The position numbers were made by a program, and so were the translations under genes. Below are positions 1-30,965 of a DNA stretch of 64,000 nt, in pieces. This DNA comes from Solwaraspora sp. WMMA2065 (GTDB lineage Bacteria; Actinomycetota; Actinomycetes; Mycobacteriales; Micromonosporaceae), in NCBI RefSeq assembly GCF_030345075.1, contig NZ_CP128361.1, positions 3,410,001-3,474,000 on the forward strand, given 5' to 3'. The number at the start of each line of letters is the position of its first letter. The first letter of the stretch is position 1. The notes beneath the pieces are model-generated. The model made no database searches. It worked only from the letters and a program-made list of their open reading frames with translations, and had not been told where the DNA came from.

Positions 1-1277
1 AGCACCTCGGATTCACCGAACGACCCGGTCAGGAACAGCGCGAACCGGCCGGGGCCGTCGACACCGGTGAAGGTCCAGACGACCGGGCCACGAACCCCGG
101 CCACCACCGACGGATGCTGCGTGTTCCAGCCCGGCCAGACGATCCCGGCGCGCTGCCCCTGCGGCAACAGCCACACCTCGTCACCCGGCGCGCCCAGGAA
201 GTCGGCGTTGTCCGGCACGGTGATCTTCGCATTGTCCTTGACGTGCAGCACCACGTCGGACAGGTCGCGCCACACCGGGGGCGAGACGGTGTCGTCCTTG
301 AGGCGGATCGTCCAGTCCGCACCGGTGAGCTCCGGGCCCATGTCGACGTGACCGTCGTCGATCACCACCCGTGACCCGTCCTGTTGAGCCGCTGCGGCGA
401 GCTGCGACGCGGTGCTGGTCGCCGTCGGTGCGGCAGCCGCCGCCAGCGCCCGCGCGGGGGTGCCGTCCGACGGCGAATCGGCACCGAGCGGTACACCGTC
501 GCCCGGGGCGGCACCGGACGCCCTCGCCAGGTCCGCCGCCGGAGCGGGAGCCGGGGCCGGCACCGGCCGGGTGTCTGCGGGGTCGGGCGGCGCCTCGTCG
601 AGCCGCGGCACCAGCACCCGGTAGTCGGCGTCGGCCGTCACCTCGGCGCCGTTGGCCAGCGTCGCGGCCGCCGACAGCGTCAGCCGGTACTCGCCCGCGG
701 CGTCGAAAAGCCAGACCAGACCGCCGGTCCTGGTCGCTGCCGGCAGCCGGGCGGTACGCGGCATCGCGTCGAGGGTGCCGAACAACGGCGTCGGCTGGCC
801 GAGCCCACCGAGGGTATAGGCGACGAATCCACCCGGGCCGTCGACCTGACGCAGCGACAGCTCGATGGTGTCGCCGCGTACCGCCCCGCGAGGCACTGCC
901 CGGGTGTCCAGATACGGAAACTCGACGTCGCTACCGGTCAGTGCCCACATCGGCCGACCGGCCGGGCCGAGGAACCGGAACGCCGGATGGTCAGGTGTCC
1001 GCACCGCCACGCCGCCTGCCGGTCCGAAGACCGCCGTCGCCGGCTTCCGGTCGGGCCCGGACACCTCGCGAGTGACCAACGACAACGTTGCGCCATCGAG
1101 GGTGACCGCTACCAGGTCGGCACCTGCCGAATTCACTACTGCCGGCGGATCGGTCGCGGGTGCGGCGGTCACCGGCGCCGGCGCGGTCAGGGCCGCAGCC
1201 AGTGCACCGATCGCCAGCACCGCGGCGCACCGGCGACGCGTCGCCGCACCGGTGGGGCGGTGAATCGTCGTCATCAT
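1..1277 (-). CDS. Secreted anchored-repeat protein, two repeats visible, 3' end outside window
   Basis: The reading frame runs from an ATG at 1277 to the window edge without a stop, so the C-terminus is missing. An N-terminal signal segment follows a basic start (TRRRCAAVLAIGALAAALT). Two copies of the surface-anchored repeat domain (TIGR03769) follow. The second has the usual DGHVDMGP start, the WPGWNTQ segment and the VDGPGRF core. The first is degenerate: it keeps FRFLGPAG and VDGPGGF but has TRTGGLVWLF where other copies have the HxHxNWxF histidines. A Pro/Ala-rich linker joins the two. The start overlaps the stop of the upstream gene in ATGATGA, so translation is coupled. By family it matches the ABC transporter-associated repeat proteins (TIGR03773). 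A surface role in metal capture is inferred. Confidence 0.8.
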   Translation of the reverse strand, partial: MMTTIHRPTGAATRRRCAAVLAIGALAAALTAPAPVTAAPATDPPAVVNSAGADLVAVTLDGATLSLVTREVSGPDRKPATAVFGPAGGVAVRTPDHPAFRFLGPAGRPMWALTGSDVEFPYLDTRAVPRGAVRGDTIELSLRQVDGPGGFVAYTLGGLGQPTPLFGTLDAMPRTARLPAATRTGGLVWLFDAAGEYRLTLSAAATLANGAEVTADADYRVLVPRLDEAPPDPADTRPVPAPAPAPAADLARASGAAPGDGVPLGADSPSDGTPARALAAAAAPTATSTASQLAAAAQQDGSRVVIDDGHVDMGPELTGADWTIRLKDDTVSPPVWRDLSDVVLHVKDNAKITVPDNADFLGAPGDEVWLLPQGQRAGIVWPGWNTQHPSVVAGVRGPVVWTFTGVDGPGRFALFLTGSFGESEV

Positions 1278-2392
1278 GAGGTCCCCTGGGTCGTCTTGTC
1301 GTCAGTGGCATCGGTGACCGCGCGGTCGCGTACGGCCTCGGCGCGGCCCTGTTCGCGCGCGGTGGCGACGGCCTGTTCCAGCTGTGCTGCCCGCCGGCGC
1401 CGGGCGCGGCGGCGGCGGGCGACGACCAGCCAGCCGGCCAGCCCGATCACCAGCAGGATCACCAGCTGCGACCACGGGACGGCCCACAGGCCGCTTTCGC
1501 GGGTCACGGTCGCTGGGGGCGGGTCGAGCACCTCGTCGGCGACGGCGGTCGGTGCGACGGTGAGCCGCGCACCGAGCCGGAACATCGGCGGCACGCCGTC
1601 GACCCGGATAGTGGTCCGGTAACTGTCGCCGGGCAGGATCTCCGGCAGCGGATCGCCGTCGACTTTGCGCCCGGCCAGCCCGAACGGTCCGGCGACGGTC
1701 AGCTGCGGCTGCCCGGTAAGTCGTACGTTGCCGGTGTTGCGCACGGTGAAGCTGGCCGTGACGGTGCCACCCGCGACCGGGTTCCAGGTGCCGTCGTACG
1801 TCGCCGACAGATCCCCGACGTCCAGGCCCGGCTGCAGTTCCCCGGTGACCCGTAGATAGATCCGGGAGCCGACCCGGTGGTCGACCGCCACCTGGTTGCC
1901 CTCGCCGTCGGTGCCGGTGGCGGCGAGCGAGGCGACGATGCCGCCGGGGTGGTCGCCGGGGGTGGCGTTGTCCGGCACCGCGATGGTGAACGGCACGTCC
2001 AGCCGCGACGTCGACGGCACGGTGAAGGTGCCGGACTCGAACGTCACCCAGGAACCGACGTCGACCGGTTCTCCGGTCGCCGGTAGCAGGTCGAAGCCGC
2101 CCTGGTCGGTGGTGAACGCGTCGCTGGCGTACACGTCGAGGGTGATCGGCTGGTCGGAGTGGTTCGTGATCGCCACGTAGTCGGTGAGAGTGGCACCCGG
2201 ATCCAGTTTGTACTCGAACGCCGGCCGTCCGTTCGGCCCGTCGGGGCTGGACGGAGCGACGCCCCAGGTGAGCGACTGCGCCGCGAGGGGCGTGTAGCTC
2301 GGCGATGCGACCGTCGCCGGGCCGGTGACCGGGCCCGTCGACACGACGGCGGCGGCGAGGAGTCCGGCGAGCAGGGCTGCTGGCGTACGCAT
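1274..2392 (-). CDS. WxL/DUF916-like surface protein with C-terminal membrane anchor
   Basis: 372 residues. There is an N-terminal signal peptide (residues ~1-29), then an Ig-like beta domain with the LDPGATLTDYVAITNHSDQP pattern typical of DUF916 (WxL peptidoglycan-binding) proteins. A second beta-rich segment (ATYDGTWNPVAGGTVTASF) follows. One transmembrane helix (WSQLVILLVIGLAGWLVVA) near residue 320 is followed by a very basic tail. The protein is therefore probably exposed on the cell surface and tethered by its C-terminus. Its gene sits between two repeat-protein genes of the same operon and overlaps the next start by four bases. In family terms it may link the repeat proteins to the wall, which is an inference. 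No metal-binding motif is obvious. Confidence 0.75.
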   Translation of the reverse strand: MRTPAALLAGLLAAAVVSTGPVTGPATVASPSYTPLAAQSLTWGVAPSSPDGPNGRPAFEYKLDPGATLTDYVAITNHSDQPITLDVYASDAFTTDQGGFDLLPATGEPVDVGSWVTFESGTFTVPSTSRLDVPFTIAVPDNATPGDHPGGIVASLAATGTDGEGNQVAVDHRVGSRIYLRVTGELQPGLDVGDLSATYDGTWNPVAGGTVTASFTVRNTGNVRLTGQPQLTVAGPFGLAGRKVDGDPLPEILPGDSYRTTIRVDGVPPMFRLGARLTVAPTAVADEVLDPPPATVTRESGLWAVPWSQLVILLVIGLAGWLVVARRRRARRRRAAQLEQAVATAREQGRAEAVRDRAVTDATDDKTTQGTS

Positions 2393-2428
2393 GCGGGGTG
2401 GTCCGTTTCGCGGAGGGTGTGGGGCGGT

Positions 2429-2462
2429 CCGGGCGACGACGCGGCACGGTGTCGTCGCCCGG
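2429..2462. terminator. Intra-operon hairpin, 12-bp perfect stem
   Basis: CCGGGCGACGAC and GTCGTCGCCCGG form a perfect 12-bp stem with a 10-base loop. It lies between the stop of the secreted repeat protein (2483) and the start of the DUF916-like gene (2392). No U-tract follows, so it may act as a partial terminator or an mRNA processing barrier that lowers expression of the downstream genes. Confidence 0.5.
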
Positions 2463-2482
2463 CCCGTTCCCTGGTGCGATCC

Positions 2483-3952
2483 TCAGATCGCGGTGAGGGT
2501 GAGGGTCGCGGTGTAGGTGCCGGGCACGGTCTCGGTCGGCAGGCGCAGCTGCAGGCCGGCCGACAGGGTCGCGGTACCCCGGCCCACGCCGGTCGGTGCC
2601 GAGCCGAGCACGGCACTGCTGCCGAGTCCACCGCCGACGCCGACGACGTACGGCTCGACGACCGGGCCCGCGACGACGCCCTGACCGGCGGACTGGTCGA
2701 CCACCTGCGGGGTCCAGCCGAGGTAGCCGGAGCTGAAGGTGGCACCGTCGGGTCCGGTGAAGTTCTCCGGCAGCTGACCGGAGGCGCTCCAGCCGGGAGT
2801 GCCGGCCCGGGTGTCGGTGACGGTGACCGGGCGCAGGCTTCCGGTGCTCTCCCAACTGTCACCACCGCTGGTCAGCTGCGCCGGCGGCAGGACAACGCTG
2901 CGGTCGTCCGGGTCGACGCTGATCACCAGTGCGCCCTGGGTGGGATCGATCGACGCGGTGATGGTCTGCGAGGCCTCCGGGTCGGTCGGGGTGAAGGCCA
3001 CCCAGAGCCAGACCTCCGCGCTGGTCGCGACGACGCTGTGGTTGTCGTCGTAGAGCTTCACCTGGTATTCGCAGGCGTTGAGCTCACGGGTGGCGGTGAA
3101 GCTGTAGGACGCGCCGGCCTCGCCGGCAATGATGGCGAAGTCGTCGCTGCCGGGGCAGCGGCTGAACCAGTGGTAGTGGTCCAGCTCGGTCTGCGGGGTC
3201 TGCACCGCCTGCAGTGTGACGGTGTCGCCGGGCTGGTACTCGTCGGCCATGCCGGCGATGCTCAGCACGGTCTCGGGACCGGTGCCGTCGAGCTCGCCGA
3301 CCACGAACGCGTAGTCGACCGGGCCGGTGCTGACGGTCGTGCCGTCGGTCAGCGTCGCGTCGGCCTGGAAGGTCAGCGTGTAGGCGCCCAGCGCGCTGAA
3401 CGCCCAGTTGGCGTGCGCGTGGGTGCGGATCGGTACGTCGATGGCGTCCGGCAGGCCGTCGTCGCTGCGGAACTTCATGATCGGGCCGCCGAAGCTGTCC
3501 TGGGTGAACACCCAGACGTTTCCTGGTCCGGTGACCTCGACGAGGCTCAACTGGACCTTGTCGCCGGCGAAGACGCCGGAGCCGAGGGTGGTGGTGTTCC
3601 AACCGGGCCAGAGCAGCTCGGGGTCCTGGGTCAGCGGCAGCAGCCAGATCTGCGATCCGGCCGGCCCGAGGAAGGCGAACCGGGGGTCGTCCGGCACCGT
3701 CATGGCCGCTTCGGGCAGCACCTGGAAGGTCACGTCCGCCGGATCACGGTTGACCGACGGGCTGACCGTGTCGTCGTGGACCTCCAGGGACAGTTCGCCA
3801 TCGTGGTAGTGGACGTCGACCGCGTCGGTGTGGCCCTTGGCGAGCACCACCTTCTCGGCTGCGGCCGCGGCGGTCGGCACCAGCAGTACGCCGCCGGCGA
3901 TCACCGCCGCACCGGCCAGGGCCGCGAGCCTGCGGGCACCTGTCGTTCTCAT
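2483..3952 (-). CDS. Secreted anchored-repeat (TIGR03769) protein with long C-terminal beta region
   Basis: 489 residues. The ATG at 3952 is preceded by GAGGGGAGG about 7 bases upstream; upstream in-frame codons lack such a site. A signal peptide ends near residue 32 (PTAAAAAEK). One repeat domain covers roughly residues 33-215 with the landmarks AKGHTDAVDV (His41), FAFLGPAG, WPGWNT, VTGPGN and RTHAHANWAF. A C-terminal part of about 270 residues is Ig-like and holds two Cys (SRCPGSDD, LNACEYQ) that could form a disulfide. No sortase motif or membrane helix is seen at the C-terminus, so it is either free or held by partners. It is first in its transcript, under the Zur-like site at 4029-4049. 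Extracellular zinc binding is inferred from the histidines and regulation. Confidence 0.8.
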   Translation of the reverse strand: MRTTGARRLAALAGAAVIAGGVLLVPTAAAAAEKVVLAKGHTDAVDVHYHDGELSLEVHDDTVSPSVNRDPADVTFQVLPEAAMTVPDDPRFAFLGPAGSQIWLLPLTQDPELLWPGWNTTTLGSGVFAGDKVQLSLVEVTGPGNVWVFTQDSFGGPIMKFRSDDGLPDAIDVPIRTHAHANWAFSALGAYTLTFQADATLTDGTTVSTGPVDYAFVVGELDGTGPETVLSIAGMADEYQPGDTVTLQAVQTPQTELDHYHWFSRCPGSDDFAIIAGEAGASYSFTATRELNACEYQVKLYDDNHSVVATSAEVWLWVAFTPTDPEASQTITASIDPTQGALVISVDPDDRSVVLPPAQLTSGGDSWESTGSLRPVTVTDTRAGTPGWSASGQLPENFTGPDGATFSSGYLGWTPQVVDQSAGQGVVAGPVVEPYVVGVGGGLGSSAVLGSAPTGVGRGTATLSAGLQLRLPTETVPGTYTATLTLTAI

Positions 3953-4028
3953 CGTTGTTCCTCCCCTCGCCCGCACCGCGGACCGGTGCGGGACGTGGTC
4001 GTGACGGGGCGGAAGCCCCACCGCAACG

Positions 4029-4049
4029 TAACGACTATCATTTTCATTA
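4029..4049 (-). promoter_or_regulatory. Zur-like operator A
   Basis: Read on the minus strand the core is TGAAAATGATAGTCG, flanked by TAA and TTA. Ten-base half sites around a central G match each other at 7 of 10 positions. It resembles the actinobacterial Zur box (TGAAAATGATTTTCA). It is centred 87 bases upstream of the 3952 start and touches the stop codon of the permease gene at 4047. Confidence 0.65.
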
Positions 4050-4964
4050 ACCTATCGGCCGTTCGGCCACCTCTGTCAGCACCGGTGTGACCTGCGCCTC
4101 GTCGGGCCCTGCCGGCTGCCGCCGCCAGCGGGCGACCAGACCGTGCCGCGGGGCCAGGAACCAGGCCAGCAGGAACACCGCCGTCGCGACCAGCACGATG
4201 GTGCCGCCCACCGGCAGGTCGTAGCTCCAGGACAGGTACAACCCCACCAGCGCCGAGCCGCCACCGATCAGCGGGGCGAGCAGCATCATCACCGCGAGCC
4301 GGTCGGTCAGCAGCCGCGCCGCCGCCGCCGGCGTGATCAGCAACGCCAGTACCAGAATGTTGCCGATCGTCTGCAGCGAGATCACCACGGCGAGGGTGAC
4401 CAGCACGTACAACACGATGTCCAGCCAGAACACCGGCAACCCGACCGACCGGGCCGACTCCCGGTCGAGACTGACCGCGACCAGCTCCTTGTGCAGCAGG
4501 AACAACGCGGTCAGGATGGCCAGCCCAGTGAAGCCGACCGTGTAGAGATCCCGGTCCGGAATGCCGGTGATCGAACCGAACAGGAACTGCTGCAGCGAAC
4601 CGGCGTACCCTGGTGCCTGCGAGATGATCACGATGCCGAGGGCGAAGGCGGCCACGAAGAACACTCCGATCAACGAGTCCTCCTTGACCCGCCGCCGCTG
4701 CGCGAACACCGCGATCAGCAGCGCGGTCACGATCCCGGCGACCGCACCGCCCAGCACCAGGCTGCCCTGCAGCACGAAGGCGACCGCCAGCCCCGGGAAC
4801 ACCGCGTGCGCCACGGCGTCACCGATGAACGCCATCCCCCGCAGCACCACGTGGCAACCGACCACCCCGCAGACCACACTGGACATGATGGCGATCAGCA
4901 GCGCCTTCGGCAGGAAGGCCAGATCCGGGTTGAACAGGTCGGCGACGAACTCGGTGACCGGCAT
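4047..4964 (-). CDS. Anchored repeat-type ABC transporter permease (ABC-3 family)
   Basis: 305 residues with about eight hydrophobic helices, the size and pattern of ZnuB-type metal permeases. The ABC-3 features GMAFIGDAVAHAVFPGLAVA near residue 43 and LLITPAAAARLLTDRL near residue 229 are present. In family terms it is the TIGR03770 permease. The start ATG shares one base with the stop of the ATPase gene (TGATG), so the two subunits should be made together. It transports the ion delivered by the lipoprotein encoded upstream; zinc or manganese are the usual substrates of the family. Zinc is favoured here by the Zur-like sites and the L32 and CobW neighbours. Confidence 0.9.
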   Translation of the reverse strand: MPVTEFVADLFNPDLAFLPKALLIAIMSSVVCGVVGCHVVLRGMAFIGDAVAHAVFPGLAVAFVLQGSLVLGGAVAGIVTALLIAVFAQRRRVKEDSLIGVFFVAAFALGIVIISQAPGYAGSLQQFLFGSITGIPDRDLYTVGFTGLAILTALFLLHKELVAVSLDRESARSVGLPVFWLDIVLYVLVTLAVVISLQTIGNILVLALLITPAAAARLLTDRLAVMMLLAPLIGGGSALVGLYLSWSYDLPVGGTIVLVATAVFLLAWFLAPRHGLVARWRRQPAGPDEAQVTPVLTEVAERPIG

Positions 4965-5740
4965 CAGCCGCTCCCCTCGCCGACCCCGACGGGCATGGTG
5001 CCGGCGCCGACGATCCGCAGCAACGGCGACCGTTCAGTGATCCCGAACGTACGCATCCACAGCCGCGGATCCCGCAACTCGGTCGGCTTGCCCTCGGCGA
5101 TCACCTGCCGGTTCAGCAGCACCAGCCGGGAACAGGCATCCATCGCCCCGATCAGGTCGTGCGTGGTCATCAACAGCGGCGTACCCTCGGCCGCCAGACC
5201 GGCGAACAGCTCACCGAGCAGCTCCTGGGTCGGCATGTCCAGCCCGGTGAACGGCTCGTCGAGCAGCAGCAACGCCGGCTGCAGCGCCAATGCCCGGGCC
5301 ACCAGCACCCGCTGGCGCTGGCCGCCGGACAACTCGGCGACCGGCCGACGACGCAGGTCTCCCAGGCGTACCCGGTCGATCGCCTCGGCGGTGGCCCGCC
5401 AGTCGGCCCGCCCCGGCCGGCGCAGCAGCCCGATCCGACCGGTCCGGCCGCTGAGCACCGCCTGCTCCACCGAGATCGGGAACTCCCAGGCGAACTCGTG
5501 CCGCTGCGGCACGTACCCGATCGCGCACCGCCCCGGCCGGCTCGGCACCCCGTCGACCAGGATCCGCCCGGACCGGGTCCGGATCAGCCCGAGCACCGAC
5601 CGCAGCAGCGTGGTCTTGCCGGCCCCGTTCGGCCCGATCAGCCCGACCAGCTCCCCCGGGTCGACGTGCAACCGCACACCGCGTAGCACCGGACGGCCGC
5701 CGAGGTCGACGTCGAGATCGTGTACGGCGAGCGCGGTCAT
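4964..5740 (-). CDS. Anchored repeat-type ABC transporter ATP-binding subunit
   Basis: 258 residues. The Walker A motif GPNGAGKTT is at residues ~36-44, the Q-loop lies in YVPQRHEFAWEFP, the signature LSGGQRQRV is followed by Walker B LLLLDEPFTGLD, and the switch histidine is in TTHD. This is a complete cytoplasmic ATPase of the metal-importer (ZnuC-like) type and matches TIGR03771. The ATG overlaps the stop of the anchored repeat protein by four bases. It powers the permease encoded next. Confidence 0.92.
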   Translation of the reverse strand: MTALAVHDLDVDLGGRPVLRGVRLHVDPGELVGLIGPNGAGKTTLLRSVLGLIRTRSGRILVDGVPSRPGRCAIGYVPQRHEFAWEFPISVEQAVLSGRTGRIGLLRRPGRADWRATAEAIDRVRLGDLRRRPVAELSGGQRQRVLVARALALQPALLLLDEPFTGLDMPTQELLGELFAGLAAEGTPLLMTTHDLIGAMDACSRLVLLNRQVIAEGKPTELRDPRLWMRTFGITERSPLLRIVGAGTMPVGVGEGSG

Positions 5741-6660
5741 GAGGCGACACGCTCCTGCTCGACCCGGCGGCGTACCGCCCGGCCGCGCAGCACCACGACG
5801 ACCAGCGCAACCGCCAGCACGACCGCGGCCAGCACAAGGCCGCCGAGCAGCCAGGGGCCGGTGCCGTCGCCGGTGCCGTCGGCTGCGGCCCCCTGGCCGT
5901 CAGCACCGTCGGAGGCGACCGGCGCGGCCGCGACCTCGTCGGGTTGCGCGGCGAACGCGTCGTCGGTGCTGACGGCGTCGCCGACCGCGAACCGCAGGTG
6001 CCGTACCGCGCTCACCTGCTCGCCGCCGACCAGGTCGGCGCTGACCCGGACGGCGACCAGGTACACGCCGGGGACGGTGAACACCCAGTTGGCGTGGGTG
6101 TGGGTGTTGACCTCCACCCACATCGGCTGGCCGGGCGGCTCGGTGGAGCGCCACAGCACCTGCGGTTCGCTGAACGTGCCGGCCTGCAGATACATGGTGA
6201 CCTCGCCAGGTCCTTCGACCCCGGCGAGCTCCAACGTCACGCCCCGGTCGATCGTCTGCATCACCCGTGGGTCCTGGGTGTTCCAGCCGACCCACACCAC
6301 GTCGGGGTGCTGCACCTGCGGCACCACGTGCACCTCGGTGCCGGCCGGCACGTCGAGGAAGCCGTACACCGGATCATCCGGCACGGTCTGCAGCGCGGCG
6401 TCGGTGACCCTCAGCACGGTCCGGTCCGGATCCCGCCACACCGGCTGCGCCGCGTCGTCGTGCAGCAGCAGGGTCCACTCGTCGTCGACGTAGCGCGGTC
6501 CGATGTCGACATGACCGGCCGCCAGCACGGTCATGTCCGCGGCGACCGGCTGGTCCGGGGCGATCGACTGGTCCAGTGCCGGGTCGGGCGATGTCGGCTG
6601 GGCGGCCAGCGTCATCGCCAGCAGCGCGGAGACGGCCGTCGACAGGCCGATCGACTTCAC
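5737..6660 (-). CDS. Membrane-anchored single-repeat (TIGR03769) protein
   Basis: 307 residues from a GTG start; GAGGAGG lies upstream. It has a signal peptide and one repeat domain with AAGHVDIGP (His50), WVGWNTQ, VEGPGEV and NTHTHANWVF (His187, His189). An Ala/Asp-rich linker leads to a single C-terminal helix (LLGGLVLAAVVLAVALVVVV) and a basic tail. The domain is thus held on the outer face of the membrane next to the transporter. The gene lies between those for the binding lipoprotein (10-base gap) and the ATPase (4-base overlap). It is likely to hand metal to the importer; this is inferred from position and histidines. Confidence 0.85.
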   Translation of the reverse strand: MKSIGLSTAVSALLAMTLAAQPTSPDPALDQSIAPDQPVAADMTVLAAGHVDIGPRYVDDEWTLLLHDDAAQPVWRDPDRTVLRVTDAALQTVPDDPVYGFLDVPAGTEVHVVPQVQHPDVVWVGWNTQDPRVMQTIDRGVTLELAGVEGPGEVTMYLQAGTFSEPQVLWRSTEPPGQPMWVEVNTHTHANWVFTVPGVYLVAVRVSADLVGGEQVSAVRHLRFAVGDAVSTDDAFAAQPDEVAAAPVASDGADGQGAAADGTGDGTGPWLLGGLVLAAVVLAVALVVVVLRGRAVRRRVEQERVAS

Positions 6661-6670
6661 TGATGCCTCC

Positions 6671-8254
6671 TCATGGTGCCAGACAATCGAGCAGCGACTC
6701 GGCGTTGAACCGCATCAGCTCGACGTAGCTGGTCACCCGGTCGTCAAAGGTGTCGCCGTAGATATCGCAGACCCGTACGTCGAGGTCGTCGGCGAGTTCG
6801 GTCAATGTCGAGGACCTCGACCGCAGGTTCGGCTCCAGGAACACCGCCGGTACCCGCAGGTTGCGGATCGTCTCGGTGAGCCGACGCCGGTCGGCCAGGC
6901 TCGGCTCGGCCGCCGGGTGCGGGCTGACGAAGCCGGAGATCTGCACGTCGTACGCGGCCCCGAGGTAGCCGAACGCGTCGTGAGTAGTGATCAGGTGCCG
7001 CCGGGCGGGCGGGATCCGCGCGATCGTGTCACGGACGTAGTCGTCCAGCGCGGTCAACTCGGCGATGTACGCCGCCGCGTGCCGCCGGTAGTCGGCGGCA
7101 CCGGCTGGGTCGACGCCGATCAGGGTGTCGCGGATCAGTTCGGTGTACGCGATGACGTTGCGGACGTTCTGCCACAGGTGCGGGTCGATCTCCCCGTGCA
7201 CGTGCTTGCCGAGCACCGCCTGCGGCAGTTGGAAGATCTCGGTGCCCGGTCGGCCGAGGAAGCGGAAGTCCCGACCGGCCGGCACCTGGGCGAGGGCCTT
7301 GTTCGGCACCTCGATGACGGTGTCGGCCGGATCGTGCACATGCTGATGGGCGTCACCGGCGCCGTGCGGGTCGGCGAACAGGTACAGCGACGGCTCGCCG
7401 CGCGCCGCCGCGTCGAGGTCGACGGTGATGTCGGCGTGCCCGCCGCGCAGTACGTCGGCCCCGGCCATCCCGGGCACGCTGTGCGGATCGACGCCGACGG
7501 CAAACGTGAAGGTCTGTTCCCCGAGGGCGACGGGGCGGCTGTCGGTGGTGACCGCCAACCGTGCCGACATGGTGAGCCGGTAGACGCCCGGCTCGGTGAA
7601 AGCCCAGCTCATGTGGGTGTGCGCGTCGGGCGGGAGGGTGGCGGTGTCGTCCCGGTAGCCGGTGGCGGCGTCGAAGCCGTCGGCCGAGTCGAGATAGACG
7701 GCCGGGTTGCCGAACGACTCGGTGAGGTAGGCCGCCATGGCGCCGGGGCCGGTCACGTTGGTGCTCTGCAGCAGGATGTCGGAGACCCGGTCTGCACCAT
7801 AGGTCCCGCCGGTGCCGCGTACCCGCATGCCGAGCCAGATGGTGTCGAGCGAGAAGTCCTCGACCAGCGGGATGATCTCGGCGGCGTACTTGATCGCCCC
7901 CTCGGCGAGCGAGATGTTCGGTACGCTATCCGGCAGGTTGGCGTCGAGCGCCTTGATGATGGCGTGCTCCTCCAGCAGCAGGTAGTTGCTGAAGGCGACG
8001 TCGGCGTAGACGACGTTGCGCACGTCGCGCAGCGACGGCTCGTACGAGTGGGGGTCGGCACCGTCGGGGACGAGCGAGGCGACCGCGACGCGGTCCCCGC
8101 CGACGTTGTCGACCAGGTCCCGCAGAATGCCGGTGGTGGTGACGACCTGGAGACGGTCGTCAGCGGCGCTCAACGTCTCGGGGACGACACAGGCCGCCAG
8201 GTTACCAAGACTGACAGCGAGCAGCGCCGACCCGATGAGCCACCGTGCGCGCAT
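6671..8254 (-). CDS. Anchored repeat ABC transporter substrate-binding lipoprotein (ZnuA-like with inserted repeat)
   Basis: 527 residues, much longer than ZnuA (about 300). The ATG at 8254 has GGAAGGTGGGG upstream. The lipobox LGNLAAC places the lipid on Cys22. ZnuA landmarks are split: the N-terminal half has VVTTTGILRDLVDNVGG and DPHSYEPSLRD (His69), and the C-terminal half has IDPHLWQNVRN (His359), TTHDAFGY (His425) and VFLEPNL. Between residues ~130 and 350 lies repeat-domain sequence in permuted order: the HTHMSWAF half (His212, His214) comes before the GGHADITVDL...FLGRPGTE half (His273). A His-rich stretch, DAHQHVHD, is at 302-309. It corresponds to TIGR03772. It captures metal outside the membrane and delivers it to the permease. 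Confidence 0.9.
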   Translation of the reverse strand: MRARWLIGSALLAVSLGNLAACVVPETLSAADDRLQVVTTTGILRDLVDNVGGDRVAVASLVPDGADPHSYEPSLRDVRNVVYADVAFSNYLLLEEHAIIKALDANLPDSVPNISLAEGAIKYAAEIIPLVEDFSLDTIWLGMRVRGTGGTYGADRVSDILLQSTNVTGPGAMAAYLTESFGNPAVYLDSADGFDAATGYRDDTATLPPDAHTHMSWAFTEPGVYRLTMSARLAVTTDSRPVALGEQTFTFAVGVDPHSVPGMAGADVLRGGHADITVDLDAAARGEPSLYLFADPHGAGDAHQHVHDPADTVIEVPNKALAQVPAGRDFRFLGRPGTEIFQLPQAVLGKHVHGEIDPHLWQNVRNVIAYTELIRDTLIGVDPAGAADYRRHAAAYIAELTALDDYVRDTIARIPPARRHLITTHDAFGYLGAAYDVQISGFVSPHPAAEPSLADRRRLTETIRNLRVPAVFLEPNLRSRSSTLTELADDLDVRVCDIYGDTFDDRVTSYVELMRFNAESLLDCLAP

Positions 8255-8307
8255 GATCCACCCCACCTTCCGTACGCCCTGCGCCCGCGCACCGCACGCT
8301 AGCACGC

Positions 8308-8328
8308 AAACGATAACCGTTGTCATAC
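8308..8328 (-). promoter_or_regulatory. Zur-like operator B
   Basis: Minus-strand core TGACAACGGTTATCG, centred 64 bases upstream of the lipoprotein start at 8254. It aligns with operators A, C and D without gaps. It would control the lipoprotein, anchored repeat protein, ATPase and permease genes. Confidence 0.6.
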
Positions 8329-8337
8329 TCGATCCGG

Positions 8338-8382
8338 CGTGCAGCCGGTGCCGAACGGGTGATGTTCGGCACCGGCTGCACG
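8338..8382. terminator. Strong hairpin terminator, 19-bp perfect stem
   Basis: A perfect inverted repeat of 19 bases with a 7-base loop (GGGTGAT) starts 51 bases after the stop of the repeat protein at 8434. It lies just upstream of operator B and so separates two transcripts. No T-run follows, as is common in high-GC actinobacteria. Confidence 0.75.
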
Positions 8383-8433
8383 GGTCGGCGGGTCGGATCA
8401 ACCGACGAATCAACCACTCGGGTCGAACGGGGG

Positions 8434-9087
8434 TCAGCCGACCTCGAAGGTGAATTCCTCGGTGCTGCTCACCGGCTGCCCGTTCGACGCACGCACGCCG
8501 CTTACCTCGAACGTCGCCACGTAGGTGCCGGCCACGTCGAAGCCCCAGTTGACGTGGGCATGGGTGTTGCGGTTGACGTTCAGGCTGTCCGGCAGACCGT
8601 TGCCGCTGTCGAACAGCACCGTGGGCGTGCCGCCCGAGGCGGTGAAGATGCTGAACCCGCCCGGCCCCTGCACGCCGGTCAGCTTGAACACGACCCGGTT
8701 GAACTGCAACGCCCCGCTGGCCACCCCGGTGGTGTCCCAGCCGGCCCAGAGCAGCCCGGCGGTGTTGGTCTGCGGCAACACGTAGGCGTACCCCCCGCTG
8801 CCGAGGAACGACCAGGCGGAACCGGACGGCACCGCCGTGTGCGCGGCGGCAGGCACCACGAGGACCACGGTGGACGGGTCACGCTCGACGAAGGTAGCGC
8901 CGGTGTCATCGCCAACGGTGACCTCGATCGGCCCACCGGCGACATGATCGACATTGATGACATCGACGTGGCCACTGGTCAGTTCGACGGTCGTGGCCTG
9001 CGCCGGGGTGGGTACGGCGACCGCGAGCACCGCAGCGAGGGCACTCGACGCGATACCGGCAAGCAGCCGGCGGCCAGGAGTCTTCAT
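8434..9087 (-). CDS. Secreted single-repeat (TIGR03769) protein
   Basis: 217 residues; ATG at 9087 with GGAGGGAG upstream. A signal peptide ends at PTPAQA near residue 31. The rest is one repeat domain with LTSGHVDVINV (His40), WSFLGSGG, WAGWDT, VQGPGGF and NTHAHVNWGF near the C-terminus. No anchor is visible, so it is predicted to be released or held by other surface proteins. It follows the 9119 gene by 31 bases in the same transcript and ends before a strong hairpin. A role as a small extracellular metal carrier is inferred. Confidence 0.85.
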   Translation of the reverse strand: MKTPGRRLLAGIASSALAAVLAVAVPTPAQATTVELTSGHVDVINVDHVAGGPIEVTVGDDTGATFVERDPSTVVLVVPAAAHTAVPSGSAWSFLGSGGYAYVLPQTNTAGLLWAGWDTTGVASGALQFNRVVFKLTGVQGPGGFSIFTASGGTPTVLFDSGNGLPDSLNVNRNTHAHVNWGFDVAGTYVATFEVSGVRASNGQPVSSTEEFTFEVG

Positions 9088-9118
9088 CACACTGCTCCCT
9101 CCGGATTCCCGACGCACG

Positions 9119-9805
9119 TCAGGGCAGGACGACGAATCGCAGGTAGACCGAGTCGGACTCGACGACGGTCGTGGTGCCCGCCAGAGTGGCACTGGCCTTC
9201 ACCTTGAGCAGGTAGACGCCCGCCTTGCTGAACGCCCAGTTGACGTGCAGGTGCTCACCGACCGCCAGGTCGACAACGTCCGGCAGCCCGTCGCGGCTGT
9301 TGGCCAGCACGGTCGGCTGCCCGAACAGGTCCTCGGTGTAGACCGCCATCTTGGCGGAGCTGGGGGCGCTGATCAGCTGCTGCACGGTCAGGTCGACCGA
9401 GTCGCCGGCGAAGACGCCCGCTTCGAGCTCCTCGGTGGCGAGGCCGGCGAAGAGCAGTTCCTCGTTCTCGATCTGCGGCAGGATCCACACCGGCGAGCCG
9501 GCGGCGCCGAGGAAGGCGAAGGCCGGGTCACTGGGCACGGTGGCCTTCGCCTGGGGCTTGACGACGAAGATCACGTCGTCGTGGTGGCGGTGCTCACCCG
9601 GCTCGACGGTGTCGTCGTGGACGCCGAGCTCCAGCTCACCGTCCTCGTACTCGACCTCGATGACGTCGACGTGTCCTTCATGCAGGACCACGGGCAGGCC
9701 GGTGCCGTGTGCCTGCGCCGGAGTGGCCGAAACCACCAGAGCGGCAATCATCGCGGCGCTGGCGACGAGCGTACCGGCGGCCCGCCGGCGAGTTGCGGTC
9801 GACAT
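9119..9805 (-). CDS. Secreted single-repeat (TIGR03769) protein, His-rich
   Basis: 228 residues. The ATG at 9805 is preceded by GGGAGGGAG; longer in-frame starts run into the CobW gene. A signal peptide (TRRR...SATPAQA) is cut near residue 32. The single repeat has LHEGHVDVIEV (His45), an added histidine cluster GEHRHHDD, FAFLGAAG and GEHLHVNWAF. No C-terminal anchor is seen. It is first in its transcript, under operator C, and is followed by a second secreted repeat protein. The extra histidines make metal binding likely, but this is an inference. Confidence 0.85.
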   Translation of the reverse strand: MSTATRRRAAGTLVASAAMIAALVVSATPAQAHGTGLPVVLHEGHVDVIEVEYEDGELELGVHDDTVEPGEHRHHDDVIFVVKPQAKATVPSDPAFAFLGAAGSPVWILPQIENEELLFAGLATEELEAGVFAGDSVDLTVQQLISAPSSAKMAVYTEDLFGQPTVLANSRDGLPDVVDLAVGEHLHVNWAFSKAGVYLLKVKASATLAGTTTVVESDSVYLRFVVLP

Positions 9806-9849
9806 GGGACAGACTCCCTCCCGGTGGTCCCTGGTGGACCACCGGGAGC

Positions 9850-9870
9850 TAACGGTAATCGTTTTCAACT
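9850..9870 (-). promoter_or_regulatory. Zur-like operator C
   Basis: Minus-strand core TGAAAACGATTACCG, centred 55 bases upstream of the 9805 start. The box overlaps the stop codon of the CobW gene (9865-9867), so the regulator would bind at the gene boundary. The left half is strong and the right half is weak. Confidence 0.6.
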
Positions 9871-11190
9871 TATCGCGGTAGGGGTGCGACCTGTCTGAGT
9901 CGACACATGTCCATGTTCGTCCAGCTCGCCGACATCCCAGTCGGGAAACGGGTCCGGCAGCTCGCGCCATGCCGCGAGCCCGGCGACCAGCCCCGCTCCG
10001 GCCGCCGCGAGCTCGGCATCGGTGAGCAGCGCGCCGTCCAGCGCCGCCCGTAGCCGCTCGCCATCGAGCCCGATGCCGATGAACACCAGCTCCTGGTGCC
10101 GGTCGCCGAAGACCGGATCCCACCGGGACTCCAGGTCGGCCCGCTCGGCCGGGTCGTCGGGCCACTCACCGGAGCTGGCCACCGGCACCCCCGCCGGGTC
10201 GCACCGCGCCGACGGACCGGCCTGCGACCACAGTGCCTGCACATCGGGCCGGGTCGCCAGCCAGAGAAAGCCCTTCGACCGTACGACGCCGAAGCTGTCC
10301 AGCTCGGCGAGCAGATCCCAGAGCCGCTGCGGATGAAACGGCGCGACCGCCCGGTAGACGATGCTGCTGATGCCGTACTCGATCGTCTCCGGCACGTGCT
10401 CGCCGTTGAGTTCGGCGACCCAACCGGGAGCGGTCTCGGCCGCCTCCAGATCGAACCGCCCGGTGTCGAGCACCTCGCCCAACGGGACCTGCGCCCGCAC
10501 GGTCCGCAGCTGACGGGCCTTCGGGTTCAGCCTGGTCACCAGCGCCTCGACCGTCGCCAACTCGGCCGACCCGACCAGGTCGGTCTTGTTGACCAGGATC
10601 ACGTCGGCGAACTCGATCTGGTCGACCAGCAGGTCGGCGATGGTGCGGTCATCGTCGTCGTACGCGGCCAGCCCACGCTGCTCCAACGACTCGCCGGCCC
10701 GCAACTGGGCGATCAGGTGCGGCGCGTCGACGACAGTGACCATGGTGTCCAGCCGGGCGATGTCGGCCAGCACCCCACCGTCGTCGGTGCCGAAGGCGAA
10801 CGTGGCCGCCACCGGCAGTGGTTCGGAGATGCCGCTGGACTCGATCACCAGGTAGTCGAAGCGGCCCAGCCGAGCCAGTCGGGCGATCTCCACCAGCAGG
10901 TCGTCGCGCAGGGTGCAGCAGATGCAGCCGTTGGTCATCTCGACCAGGCGTTCCTCGGTACGCGACAGGCTACCGCCGTCGCGCACCAGCGCGGCGTCGA
11001 TGTTGATCTCGCTCATGTCGTTGACAATGACCGCGACCCGCCGCCCTTCCCGGTTGGCCAAGATGTGGTTGAGCAGGGTGGTCTTGCCCGCACCGAGGAA
11101 TCCGGACAGCACCGTTACCGGCAGCCGACGGTCACTGGCCACCGCGCCGGCCGTCGCACCGTTCCCCTCGCTGGCCACCGCACCGGTCAT
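9865..11190 (-). CDS. CobW/ZNG1-family GTPase, zinc metallochaperone-like
   Basis: 441 residues. The P-loop GFLGAGKT is at ~30-37, and the family CxCC motif is in [11 protein letters not shown] (Cys89, Cys91, Cys92). Further G-motifs are [10 protein letters not shown] and VNKTDL. A CobW C-terminal domain follows (residues ~290-410). COG0523 GTPases that sit beside Zur sites are thought to hand zinc to client proteins under zinc shortage. Its ATG overlaps the stop of the L32 gene by four bases, so it belongs to the operator D transcript. Clients cannot be told from sequence. Confidence 0.9.
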
Positions 11191-11366
11191 CGCGGATCCT
11201 CGACCTGGCGGCCCCGGTACAGGCCGCAGTGTGCGCAGGCCCGGTGCGGCAGGATCTTCTCCTGTCGCGGGCAGGGGCAGGTCACCAGCATCGGCACCGC
11301 CGCCTTCCACTGGGCGCGCCGGTGGCGGGTGTTCGACCGCGAGGTGCGGCGCTTCGGTACGGCCAT
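11187..11366 (-). CDS. rpmF: Ribosomal protein L32 paralogue (bL32)
   Basis: 59 residues starting [20 protein letters not shown], the standard L32 N-terminus; the start is set by this homology. The C-terminal zinc ribbon is unusual: the first knuckle reads TCPCP (CxC) instead of CxxC, and the second, ACAHCG, is normal. Four cysteines are therefore kept but with altered spacing. Alternative ribosomal proteins under Zur normally replace zinc-loaded copies during zinc shortage. Whether this copy still binds zinc cannot be decided by eye. It is co-transcribed with the CobW gene and lies 40 bases from the centre of operator D. Confidence 0.88.
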
Positions 11367-11395
11367 GGACGGCCTCCTCTCGTCTACCCAGACGA

Positions 11396-11416
11396 TAACG
11401 GAAGCCGTTTTCATTA
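11396..11416 (-). promoter_or_regulatory. Zur-like operator D
   Basis: Minus-strand core TGAAAACGGCTTCCG with TAA and TTA flanks. Half sites around the central G match at 7 of 10 positions. It precedes the L32-CobW pair, whose products are standard members of actinobacterial Zur regulons, which supports the identity of all four boxes. Confidence 0.65.
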
Positions 11417-11476: not shown

Positions 11477-11845
11477 TCACCCGTGGTGATCGGAGACCCG
11501 CTCCCCCGGCCCGTGGTCGGGCAGCTCGCGGTCGGCATGGTCGGCGTGGAACAGCGCCTCGGCCAGCAACTGCCGGACGTGCACGTCTGCGGCCGAGTAG
11601 TAGACGAATGTGCCCTCCCGGCGACCCCGGACCAGCCCGGCGAGCCGCAGCTTGGCCAGGTGCTGGCTGACCGCCGTCGGCGCGGCACCGACCAACTCGG
11701 CCAGGCAGGCGACCGACGACTCACCCTGCAGCAGCGCCCAGAGAATCTTGATCCGGGTGGGGTCGGCGAGCAGGCGGAACGTCTCCGCGGCCAGGTGCAC
11801 CTGCTCCTCGACCGGCATCCGGAAATCCGGAATCGAGGTGTGCAT
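11477..11845 (-). CDS. ArsR/SmtB-family metal sensor, NmtR/CzrA type
   Basis: 122 residues with a winged helix ([32 protein letters not shown]). The alpha-5 metal site is complete: Asp87, His89, His100 and His103, the D-x-H...H-x-x-H spacing of CzrA and NmtR. The C-terminal tail adds His111, His120 and His121, as in the nickel/cobalt sensor NmtR. It is divergent from a P1B-4 ATPase gene, the same pairing as nmtR-ctpJ in mycobacteria. Metal-free protein should bind the shared operator and release it when nickel, cobalt or zinc rises. Which metal is used is not certain. Confidence 0.88.
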
Positions 11846-11885
11846 GCCGGTCAGACTAGTCGAGGCCGCCTACTTGCATATCTGC

Positions 11886-11901
11886 ATAGCTGCGCAGCTA
11901 T
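11886..11901. promoter_or_regulatory. Probable metal-sensor operator, perfect 16-bp palindrome
   Basis: ATAGCTGCGCAGCTAT is a perfect palindrome in the 60-base gap between the divergent sensor and exporter genes, ending 4 bases before the ATPase ATG. The adjacent bases add two further TGCATA-type copies to the left (TGCATATC TGCATAGC). It is the natural binding site for the ArsR-family protein. Confidence 0.6.
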
Positions 11902-11905
11902 TGTA

Positions 11906-13867
11906 ATGGCCGTGCTCATCGATACCCCGCCGTACGCGCCCCCGAAACGCGCCGAGCGCCTGGCCGACGCCACCCGCCGTACCCCGATCTGGGCGCTGCC
12001 CGAGGTCCGCTGGGCGACCGCCGCGACCGCGCTGTTCGCCCTCGGCGGCACGCTGCACCTGGCCGGAGCCCCGGCGTGGAGCTGGTGGGCCGCCTACCTT
12101 GCCTGCTACGTCGCCGGCGGTTGGGAACCAGGCTGGTCCGGGCTGCGCGCACTACGCGAACGCACCCTCGACGTCGACCTGCTGATGGTGGTCGCCGCGA
12201 TCGGGGCCGCCGCCGTCAACCAGGTCTTCGACGGCGCCCTGCTGATCGTCATCTTCGCCACCTCCGGCGCGCTGGAAGCGCTCGCCACTCGACGAACCGC
12301 CGACGCCGTCCACAGCCTGCTCGACCTGGCCCCGCCCCGGGCGACGCGGATCGTCGACGGCACCGAACAGCGGGTCGACACCGTCACACTGCGCGTCGGC
12401 GACGTCATCCTGGTCCGCCCCGGCGAGCGGATCGGCGCCGACGGACAGGTTGTCGACGGCGCCAGCGAGGTCGACCAGGCCACCATCACCGGCGAGCCGC
12501 TACCGGTGGACCGCAGCCACGGCGACGACGTGTACGCCGGCACCCTCAACGGCACCGGAGCGCTACGGGTCCGGGTGACCACCCCGGCAGGCGAGACCGT
12601 CGTCGCCCGGATCGCCGCCATGGTCGAGGAGGCCGCCGCCAGCAAGGCACCCACCCAGCTGTTCATCGAACGGATCGAGCAGCGCTACTCGGTCGGAGTC
12701 GTGGTCGCGACTCTCGCCCTGTTCGGCATCCCGCTCGCCCTCGGCGACAGCCTCACCGACGCCCTGCTGCGGGCGATGACCTTCATGATCGTCGCTTCCC
12801 CCTGTGCCGTGGTGCTGGCGACCATGCCGCCGCTGCTCGCCGCGATCGCCACCGCCGGCAGACACGGCGTACTGGTCAAATCCGCCGGGGTGATCGAACG
12901 CCTCGGCCGTGCCGACCTGGTCGCCTTCGACAAGACCGGCACCCTCACCGAAGGTCGGCCCCGAGTCACCGCCGTCCACCCCGTACCCGGTGATCCGGCC
13001 ACCGGCGACGCGGACCAACTGCTGGCTCTCGCCGCCGCCGCCGAACTGCCCAGCGAACACCCGATCGGTGTCGCCGTGGTCGCCGCCGCCCGCGACCGCC
13101 AGTTGGCGATCGCCGCCACCGACACGTTCGCCGCACTACCAGGGCGCGGCGTCACGGCCCGCGTCGGTGACCGGCAGGTGGCCGTGGCCAGCCCGGCCCA
13201 GCTGCTGACCGCCACCGACGACGGGGCCCGCCGGCTGGTCGCCGAAGTGGAGTCCGCCGGCCAGACCGCCGTCGTGGTCGCCGTCGACGGCACGCCGGCA
13301 GCCGTCCTCGCGCTCACCGACCGGTTGCGACCCGGCGCGGCCCCGGTCACCGCCGCGCTGCGTGCCCTGACCGGGCGGTCGCCGGTGCTGCTCACCGGCG
13401 ACAACCCGCAGGCAGCCGGCGGGCTGGCCGCCGAGGTCGGCATCGACGAGGTACGGGCCGGTCTGCTGCCGCAGGACAAGGTCGCCGCGGTACGGCAACT
13501 GCAGGCCGGCGGCCGGCGGGTGCTGGTGATCGGCGACGGAGTCAACGACGCACCGGCGCTGGCCACCGCGCACACCGGCGTCGCGATGGGTGGCGTCGGT
13601 GCCGACCTCGCCCTGGAGACCGCGGACACCGTCATCGTCCGCGACGACCTGACCACCATCCCCGCGCTTGTCGCCCTCGCCCGGCGGGCCCGGCGCTGCG
13701 TGGTCGCCAACCTGGTCATCGCCGGCACCGTCATCGTGGTCCTGGCGACCTGGGACATCGTCGGCCACCTGCCGCTGCCGCTCGGCGTCGCCGGGCACGA
13801 GGGCTCCACCATCCTGGTCGCGCTCAACGGCATGCGGCTGCTGCGCCGCTCGGCCTGGCAGCAGTGA
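11906..13867 (+). CDS. P1B-4-type heavy-metal exporting ATPase (CtpJ/CoaT-like)
   Basis: 653 residues without an N-terminal metal-binding domain. The ATG at 11906 fits the short N-terminus of the class. The P-type landmarks are an actuator TGE in ITGEPLPVD, the phosphorylation motif DKTGTLTEG (Asp near 342) and GDGVNDAPAL. The metal-site helix has ASPCAVV (SPC, near residues 298-300) and the last helices have HEGST, which together define the P1B-4 group that exports Co, Ni, Fe or Zn. CPC, typical of Zn/Cd/Cu pumps, is absent. Expression is expected to be controlled by the divergent NmtR-like sensor. Confidence 0.9.
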   Translation: MAVLIDTPPYAPPKRAERLADATRRTPIWALPEVRWATAATALFALGGTLHLAGAPAWSWWAAYLACYVAGGWEPGWSGLRALRERTLDVDLLMVVAAIGAAAVNQVFDGALLIVIFATSGALEALATRRTADAVHSLLDLAPPRATRIVDGTEQRVDTVTLRVGDVILVRPGERIGADGQVVDGASEVDQATITGEPLPVDRSHGDDVYAGTLNGTGALRVRVTTPAGETVVARIAAMVEEAAASKAPTQLFIERIEQRYSVGVVVATLALFGIPLALGDSLTDALLRAMTFMIVASPCAVVLATMPPLLAAIATAGRHGVLVKSAGVIERLGRADLVAFDKTGTLTEGRPRVTAVHPVPGDPATGDADQLLALAAAAELPSEHPIGVAVVAAARDRQLAIAATDTFAALPGRGVTARVGDRQVAVASPAQLLTATDDGARRLVAEVESAGQTAVVVAVDGTPAAVLALTDRLRPGAAPVTAALRALTGRSPVLLTGDNPQAAGGLAAEVGIDEVRAGLLPQDKVAAVRQLQAGGRRVLVIGDGVNDAPALATAHTGVAMGGVGADLALETADTVIVRDDLTTIPALVALARRARRCVVANLVIAGTVIVVLATWDIVGHLPLPLGVAGHEGSTILVALNGMRLLRRSAWQQ

Positions 13868-28200: not shown

Positions 28201-30965
<2,765 letters not shown>

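Follow-up and report, generated by a model that had tools for sequence, protein, structure and literature searches.

The window, a stretch of 64,000 nucleotides from Solwaraspora sp. WMMA2065 (contig NZ_CP128361.1, positions 3,410,001 to 3,474,000), opens with a gene island in which an ATP-binding cassette (ABC) importer is combined with surface repeat proteins and for which zinc scavenging under Zur is a very likely role. The genome consists of one contig of 6.74 Mb and is 99.37% complete. Bases 1-11366 comprise ten complete genes and a partial eleventh one on the minus strand, in the transcription order L32, CobW GTPase, RptA1, RptA2, binding lipoprotein, RptB, ATPase, permease, RptC, RptD and RptE (Table 1). 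They form four transcripts, each behind its own Zur-type operator. The first encodes ribosomal protein L32 and the CobW GTPase, the second the two secreted repeat proteins RptA1 and RptA2, the third the binding protein, RptB, the ATPase and the permease, and the fourth a three-gene surface operon that crosses base 1. Its last protein, RptE, extends beyond the window and reaches a full length of 547 residues in the adjoining stretch of the contig. Loci outside the window are cited by L numbers.

Table 1. Features of the island, its operators and the second WxL-type pair (window positions unless marked G000; cut-offs in bits; E, expectation value; AF2, AlphaFold 2; pLDDT, predicted local distance difference test)
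Feature	Position	Strand	Evidence
rpmF-type gene, second ribosomal protein L32, 59 residues	11187..11366	-	TIGR01031 70.3 bits (cut-off 22.6)
CobW/COG0523 GTPase, ZigA-like, 441 residues	9865..11190	-	NF038288 558.9 bits (cut-off 600); PF02492, PF07683
RptA1, secreted, single HxD/HxH repeat, no visible anchor (by eye)	9119..9805	-	NF038134 158.4 bits
RptA2, secreted, single HxD/HxH repeat, no visible anchor (by eye)	8434..9087	-	NF038134 159.2 bits
Binding lipoprotein, 527 residues, ZnuA family with embedded HxH...HxD repeat	6671..8254	-	TIGR03772 780.5 bits (cut-off 350.45); PF01297 219 bits
RptB, ZnuE-like, one HxD/HxH domain, C-terminal membrane stretch (by eye)	5737..6660	-	NF038134 194 bits
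ABC ATPase	4964..5740	-	TIGR03771 370.5 bits (cut-off 268.8)
ABC permease	4047..4964	-	TIGR03770 468.9 bits (cut-off 296.8)
RptC, one HxD/HxH domain (residues 36-218), linker, WxL-like tail	2483..3952	-	NF038134 193.5 bits
WxL-like C-terminal domain of RptC	2486..2977	-	alignment rows versus PF13731; AF2 pLDDT 88.6
RptD, WxL-interacting protein (DUF916), C-terminal membrane stretch (by eye), no repeat	1274..2392	-	PF06030 46.5 bits (cut-off 27.3), E 4.6e-12
RptE, sortase-anchored surface protein, start only	1..1277	-	TIGR03773 370.5 bits (cut-off 190.3); TIGR01167 16.9 (cut-off 15.9)
Zur-type operator 1, about 30 bases before L32	11397..11413	-	left-out test; C. glutamicum matrix
Zur-type operator 2, before RptA1	9851..9867	-	left-out test; C. 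glutamicum matrix
Zur-type operator 3, before the binding protein	8309..8325	-	left-out test; C. glutamicum matrix
Zur-type operator 4, before RptC	4030..4046	-	left-out test; C. glutamicum matrix
HtaA with WxL-like tail, WxL-interacting protein, divergent ABC transporter	G000 3541448-3548243 (L189:5449-12244)

Using NCBIfam and Pfam, the L32 protein, the CobW GTPase, the ZnuA-like protein with embedded repeat, the ATPase and the permease named in an initial annotation, made from the sequence alone, were confirmed. All three importer subunits scored above the curated anchored-repeat models, and in the binding protein a TIGR03769 repeat lies inside a ZnuA-family protein. As the NF038288 score of the CobW GTPase stays below the cut-off, the protein was named ZigA-like only. 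The repeat domain NF038134 was found in RptA1, RptA2, RptB, RptC and RptE, in agreement with the five surface repeat proteins counted initially, to which RptD is added as a sixth surface protein without repeat. Their description as anchored suits RptE (sortase), RptB (membrane stretch) and RptC (WxL-like tail), and no anchor was visible by eye in RptA1 and RptA2. RptE is the sole protein with an LPXTG signal, membrane stretch and charged tail, with a Pfam PF00746 score of 13.2 that falls short of the cut-off of 20. It passed the TIGR03773 cut-off for surface proteins, under which RptA1, RptA2, RptB and RptC remained, and contains two repeat copies, the first of them without HxD and HxH.

Two L32 genes of the genome scored above the cut-off, the island copy being one of them. 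Its four cysteines stand in an altered spacing, CPCP..CAHC, compared to CPQC..CTVC in the main L32. L32 copies with C-P-C spacing were likewise seen in L069, L071, L119 and L162, and a pattern search yielded cysteine-free copies in L153 and L182.

Zur-type operators and their conservation

The four operators are 17-base cores of the form TGAnAAyGnnnnnCGTT. Each was ranked first by the matrix of the other three among 127,956 positions, with the three training sites set aside. A foreign matrix was derived from five published Corynebacterium glutamicum Zur sites, belonging to four regulated genes and one candidate before adhA (PMC2823685; here and below, published statements refer to excerpts of the papers cited). 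It placed the four operators at ranks 1-4 in the window with scores of 26.5, 25.2, 25.0 and 18.5, the fifth-best place reaching 10.5. The operator signal is real and of Zur type, and the initial observation of four Zur-like operators before four transcripts on one strand was borne out by both tests. From these sequences we infer that Zur binds to the operators. A loose 15-base operator pattern gave over two thousand matches and was dropped.

Searching the whole genome with the four-site model, 150 of 213 first-look candidates were scored, so that weaker genomic sites can be missed. The four operators obtained E values of 0.007 to 0.04, by construction as these were the training sites. Two further matches up to E 10 were found before L057 and L058, where the C. 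glutamicum matrix gave 32.2 and 32.6. The first precedes a further HxD/HxH repeat protein (NF038134 142 bits), the second a second CobW GTPase. The same matrix gave 19.6 before znuABC and a Fur-family gene (L052) and 19.8 before a second Fur-family gene (L053). The surface protein behind the strong site at L057:2192-4501 (G000 about 6.054 Mb) shows an apparent frame shift partway. The CobW GTPase at L058:2022-3293 (G000 about 3.566 Mb) scored 240 bits with the model for MRF, a hibernation-factor-recruiting GTPase (cut-off 375), and lower, with 186 bits, with the ZigA model (cut-off 600). The znuABC operon, located at 2.84 Mb, is followed by one Zur-like Fur-family gene, and the other, L053:2005-2457 (G000 about 1.764 Mb), carries a Zur-type site at its own start, which suggests self-control.

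For comparison with other genomes two sets of clusters were used. In the family sample TIGR03772 scored above cut-off in 47 of 150 genomes of the same family; 40 of these 47 clusters were compared, excluding that of the window and six more. The named set comprised the best 80 of 321 relatives across Actinomycetota, among which the top matches to the binding protein came from Micromonospora and allies. Some genomes occur in both sets, which are not independent of each other. Using the window matrix, sites of at least 18 bits were found in all 40 family clusters and in 69 of the 80 named clusters, compared to 39 and 72 clusters, respectively, with the C. glutamicum matrix. Shuffled sequence yielded no site at 18 bits. 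A total of 203 sites was obtained in the 80 clusters, 163 of them located up to 700 bases upstream of a homologous gene and only one inside such a gene, though these genes cover 690,464 of 1,634,197 bases. A CobW-family match was present in 37 and an L32 match in 5 of the 80 named clusters, so both companions belong to some clusters and not to the core.

HxD/HxH repeats, predicted metal site and the published counterpart

Each of the five island repeat proteins has at least one repeat copy with both motifs, HxD near the start of the repeat and HxH near its end. Conservation was determined for single-domain proteins of the RptA1/RptA2/RptB type, which were selected by tblastn (above 100 bits, 180-420 residues) and without regard to the motif. 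Both motifs were kept in all of them, i.e., in 151 of 151 from the named and 86 of 86 from the family clusters, and the four HxD/HxH residues were among the twelve fully conserved positions of the 151-row alignment. A 34-row alignment also showed HxD/HxH in all rows, partly by construction, as 30 rows had been chosen by motif. The AF2 model of RptA2 displays a beta-rich fold (pLDDT 96.4). For the repeat domain no clear solved relative was found, neither by fold (none at E 0.001 or better) nor by sequence search. In one lineage (L092-L097) an extra secreted repeat protein with the motif variant S-H-H-H-P-T-W (or T-H-H-H) was observed among the repeat genes.

The predicted metal ligands of the binding protein are H69, H359, H425 and D501, i.e., three histidines and one aspartate, which are invariant in 9 of 9 aligned proteins. 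H425 occupies the position of a glutamate in the closest solved manganese proteins, and a histidine at this place is found in zinc-type binding proteins such as TroA and AztC. With its PF01297 match and three histidine ligands the protein is predicted to be of the ZnuA type.

The same arrangement is published for Corynebacterium diphtheriae, and the zinc idea is therefore already known. The troA/znuA-dip0445 cluster of this organism has the same order and is zinc-repressed through Zur (PMC6711530, 2019), and ZnuAECB/ZnuFG with the HxD/HxH motif was described as a zinc-uptake locus (PMC12445094, 2025), which renders the initial statement that the anchored-repeat transporter has no proven substrate out of date. 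According to the latter paper the transporter supports growth at low zinc and requires the membrane-held ZnuE; ZnuE, ZnuF and ZnuG show zinc-dependent thermal shifts, the HxD/HxH histidines matter in vivo, both motifs meet in space in the ZnuE and ZnuG models, and the wall location was shown. Judged by gene order and published descriptions, both clusters share the binding protein with embedded reversed HxH/HxD, the membrane repeat protein, the ATPase and the permease, followed by a second Zur-controlled surface operon, and a sortase-anchored repeat protein. The place of RptB, flanked by the genes for binding protein and ATPase, is also that of ZnuE. Compared to the C. diphtheriae cluster (ZnuAECB and ZnuF-ZnuG-DIP0444-DIP0445), the L32-CobW pair and a two-gene operon for secreted repeat proteins are added here. 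RptC combines one repeat with a WxL-like tail, whereas ZnuF combines two repeats with a membrane tail, and the WxL-interacting protein RptD is a further difference from the C. diphtheriae cluster. The model descriptions of the families TIGR03769-TIGR03773 name no substrate; the island sets them under Zur-type operators. Two other systems work in a similar way only, namely streptococcal Pht with AdcAII, where the Pht surface zinc proteins have a different motif and stand beside a zinc binding protein (PMC12445094), and Paracoccus AztD with AztC, a periplasmic zinc protein beside a zinc binding protein (PMC6689063).

With a probability of roughly 0.8 we regard the locus as an island for zinc scavenging that is repressed by Zur and corresponds to ZnuAECB/ZnuFG of C. 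diphtheriae, with RptC being clamped by RptD. When zinc falls, Zur would leave the four operators, and the cell would make the alternative L32, the zinc-handling CobW GTPase and a high-affinity ABC importer with the membrane-held, ZnuE-like partner RptB. Secreted or wall-held HxD/HxH proteins would bind zinc outside the membrane, and the bound zinc might either raise the local concentration or be handed to the binding protein. No sortase would be needed to keep RptC in the wall, since its WxL-like tail would be clamped by RptD, a WxL-interacting protein with peptidoglycan-binding domain and membrane stretch. We infer zinc as the substrate of this importer as well as the hand-over to the binding protein and the RptC clamp. 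The initial interpretation is supported in part: the zinc regulon is well supported by the operators, the cluster conservation, the ligands of the binding protein, the HxD/HxH conservation and the published set, and the relay that would pass zinc inward, proposed along with it, is a hypothesis. A zinc-uptake system from one pathogen would be extended, together with its operator signal, to many environmental actinomycetes.

Several observations weigh against this view of the island. With the window matrix, 11 of the 80 named clusters have no 18-bit site (L117, L150, L157, L158, L163, L164, L166, L173, L179, L180, L183); they include all five Solirubrobacter/Conexibacter records (three and two, respectively), several records ending near the gene, and others. 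The top sequence matches of the binding protein in the PDB are manganese proteins, the genome also holds an ordinary znuABC, and the two Fur-family candidates scored (38.2 and 35.9 bits) are far below the NCBI Zur cut-off of 167. In C. diphtheriae, triple-alanine motif mutants still shifted with zinc, deletion of znuF or znuG was harmless to growth, and the tail of ZnuF is a membrane tail instead of a WxL-like one (PMC12445094). Finally, the RptC tail of the window itself has no PF13731 match and lacks the paired W-x-L: the first tryptophan is invariant and is followed by x-Ala, and the second place reads L-T-L.

The surface repeat proteins may instead be zinc stores or sponges, which bind zinc at the wall in competition with the importer rather than to supply it; we consider this unlikely, though less so than the other alternatives below. 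Beyond the harmless single losses, plasmid-borne znuF or znuG slows C. diphtheriae growth in low zinc, deletion of the znuF operon restores the peak density of a znuAECB mutant (both PMC12445094), and RptA1 and RptA2, for which no anchor was seen by eye, could leave the cell. The results for ZnuE, ZnuF and ZnuG fit surface capture or storage at least as well as a relay. Nevertheless, operators shared with an importer whose binding protein holds the same domain favour supply over pure storage, and ZnuE, which carries the same motif, is required (PMC12445094).

The WxL-like tail of RptC and its partner RptD

Work on the WxL clamp has so far centred on lactic-acid bacteria and related groups. RptD has the domain by which WxL-interacting proteins bind peptidoglycan and gave no DUF3324 match in Pfam up to E 1. 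RptC, encoded just upstream, ends in a WxL-like domain. When 24 aligned tail rows (the window copy, 22 relatives and one HtaA-type tail) were compared to PF13731, 20 matched up to E 10, with a best E of 2.2e-5. Nine of ten relatives scored singly also matched with E values of 1.7e-4 to 0.033, all below the 25-bit cut-off. Because the window copy has no such match and its second W-x-L is gone, the tail was called WxL-like. Its AF2 model reached the pLDDT given in Table 1, with no clearly similar solved structure (best E 1.5e-3).

Tail and partner were then counted, whereby tails were sought only in frames matching a window protein, so that an unlike carrier could be missed. Among the 40 family clusters the partner (above 60 bits) was present in 33, the tail in 32, both in 32, neither in 7, and the tail alone in none. 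The only family cluster with partner and no tail, L061, is truncated by the start of its contig. In the 80 named clusters the partner was found 46 times, in 42 cases with the tail and in four in clusters truncated by the record edge (L109, L110, L112, L146); one cluster (L165) had the tail with a weaker partner match, and 33 had neither. In at least three of the seven pair-less family clusters (L089, L090 and L098) the RptC-type proteins were seen by eye to end in a sortase-like signal.

These sequence features suggest that the RptC-RptD pair anchors a zinc-binding domain to the wall independently of sortase, which is probably not needed to keep RptC there. As in the WxL/DUF916-DUF3324 clusters described (PMC10599100, PMC9772566), DUF916, a membrane stretch and an adjoining WxL-type partner are present. 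In contrast to those, RptD has no DUF3324, the W-x-L pair is degenerate, and the cargo is of the zinc or haem type and not host-binding. Over 91% of the known WxL sequences were assigned to Firmicutes (PMC9772566). How ZnuF is attached to the wall without sortase was posed as a question in PMC12445094. A WxL clamp was rejected as explanation for ZnuF, which has a membrane tail. The pair is a concrete candidate for sortase-independent wall attachment, for ZnuF a different solution in relatives and not a proven answer.

It is doubtful that the RptC tail is just a generic immunoglobulin-like wall domain, RptD an unrelated neighbour and their pairing an inherited linkage. The missing PF13731 match of the window tail, the sub-threshold scores of the single relatives and the want of a clearly similar solved structure would all be in keeping with it, and tail and partner genes adjoin in nearly all clusters, so that much of the co-occurrence could be due to linkage alone. 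It does not account well for their joint presence or absence in both cluster sets, contig-edge cases and one weak match aside, for L115, L136 and L161, which hold both and not as same-strand neighbours, or for a second pair with different cargo elsewhere in the genome.

This second pair contains the one other WxL-interacting gene of the genome, at 3.54 Mb (Table 1). The preceding gene encodes a haem-type HtaA domain (PF04213, E 7.5e-40) with a tail that matches PF13731 at E 7.2e-4 and 20 bits, under the cut-off, and is divergent from genes for a binding protein, a FecCD permease and an ATPase of haem or siderophore type. When a profile built from eight tails of this kind, taken from other WxL-type proteins, was compared once with that of the RptC tail, the two aligned over 153 columns with a probability of 99.7%. 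Across the family a WxL-interacting gene was detected in 34 of 61 genomes. Of 31 WxL-interacting loci (30 from family genomes plus L100), the upstream protein fitted the tail pattern in 26. The five others comprise L200 and L202, where an HxD/HxH protein comes first, and L204, L206 and L212, which look similar and failed the pattern. At L205 the gene beside the WxL-interacting gene appears by eye to encode a metallophosphatase-like protein with a WxL-like tail.

We lean towards the view that Actinomycetota display metal and haem receptors beside ABC importers without sortase, by means of a WxL-like domain and a WxL-interacting protein that clamps it, with a lineage-dependent choice between clamp and sortase within one zinc-uptake family. 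In the open-licence literature searched, the WxL clamp was tied neither to zinc nor to HtaA. If receptors for zinc and for haem do share one display module, this would be a novelty for the phylum within that literature.

Metal, candidate regulators and neighbouring genes

It is very improbable that manganese or some other divalent metal is what the importer transports and that another member of the Fur family reads the sites. In favour of this reading, those solved binding proteins that come closest are of the manganese-binding type, and of the five Fur-family genes in the genome the two scored fall below the Zur cut-off, yet the third ligand is histidine and not the manganese-type glutamate, the published C. 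glutamicum Zur matrix picks exactly these sites, and the operators are common to L32 and CobW, with rpmF being controlled by Zur in Streptomyces coelicolor (PMC5472717). As both scored candidates stay under the cut-off, the regulator reading the sites is presumptively named Zur.

The Fur-family gene at 28237-28689 was rejected as regulator, as it lies directly before a catalase-peroxidase gene and has no site (best 3.9). Both form a pair of the FurA-KatG type, unrelated to zinc. Adjoining the island, at 11477-13867, no strong Zur-type site was obtained by matrix scan, with the best place at 9.3. The genes there encode an ArsR/SmtB-type regulator and, in divergent orientation, a P-type ATPase for metal export, which has SPC and HEGS motifs and is presumably of the cobalt/iron/zinc type.

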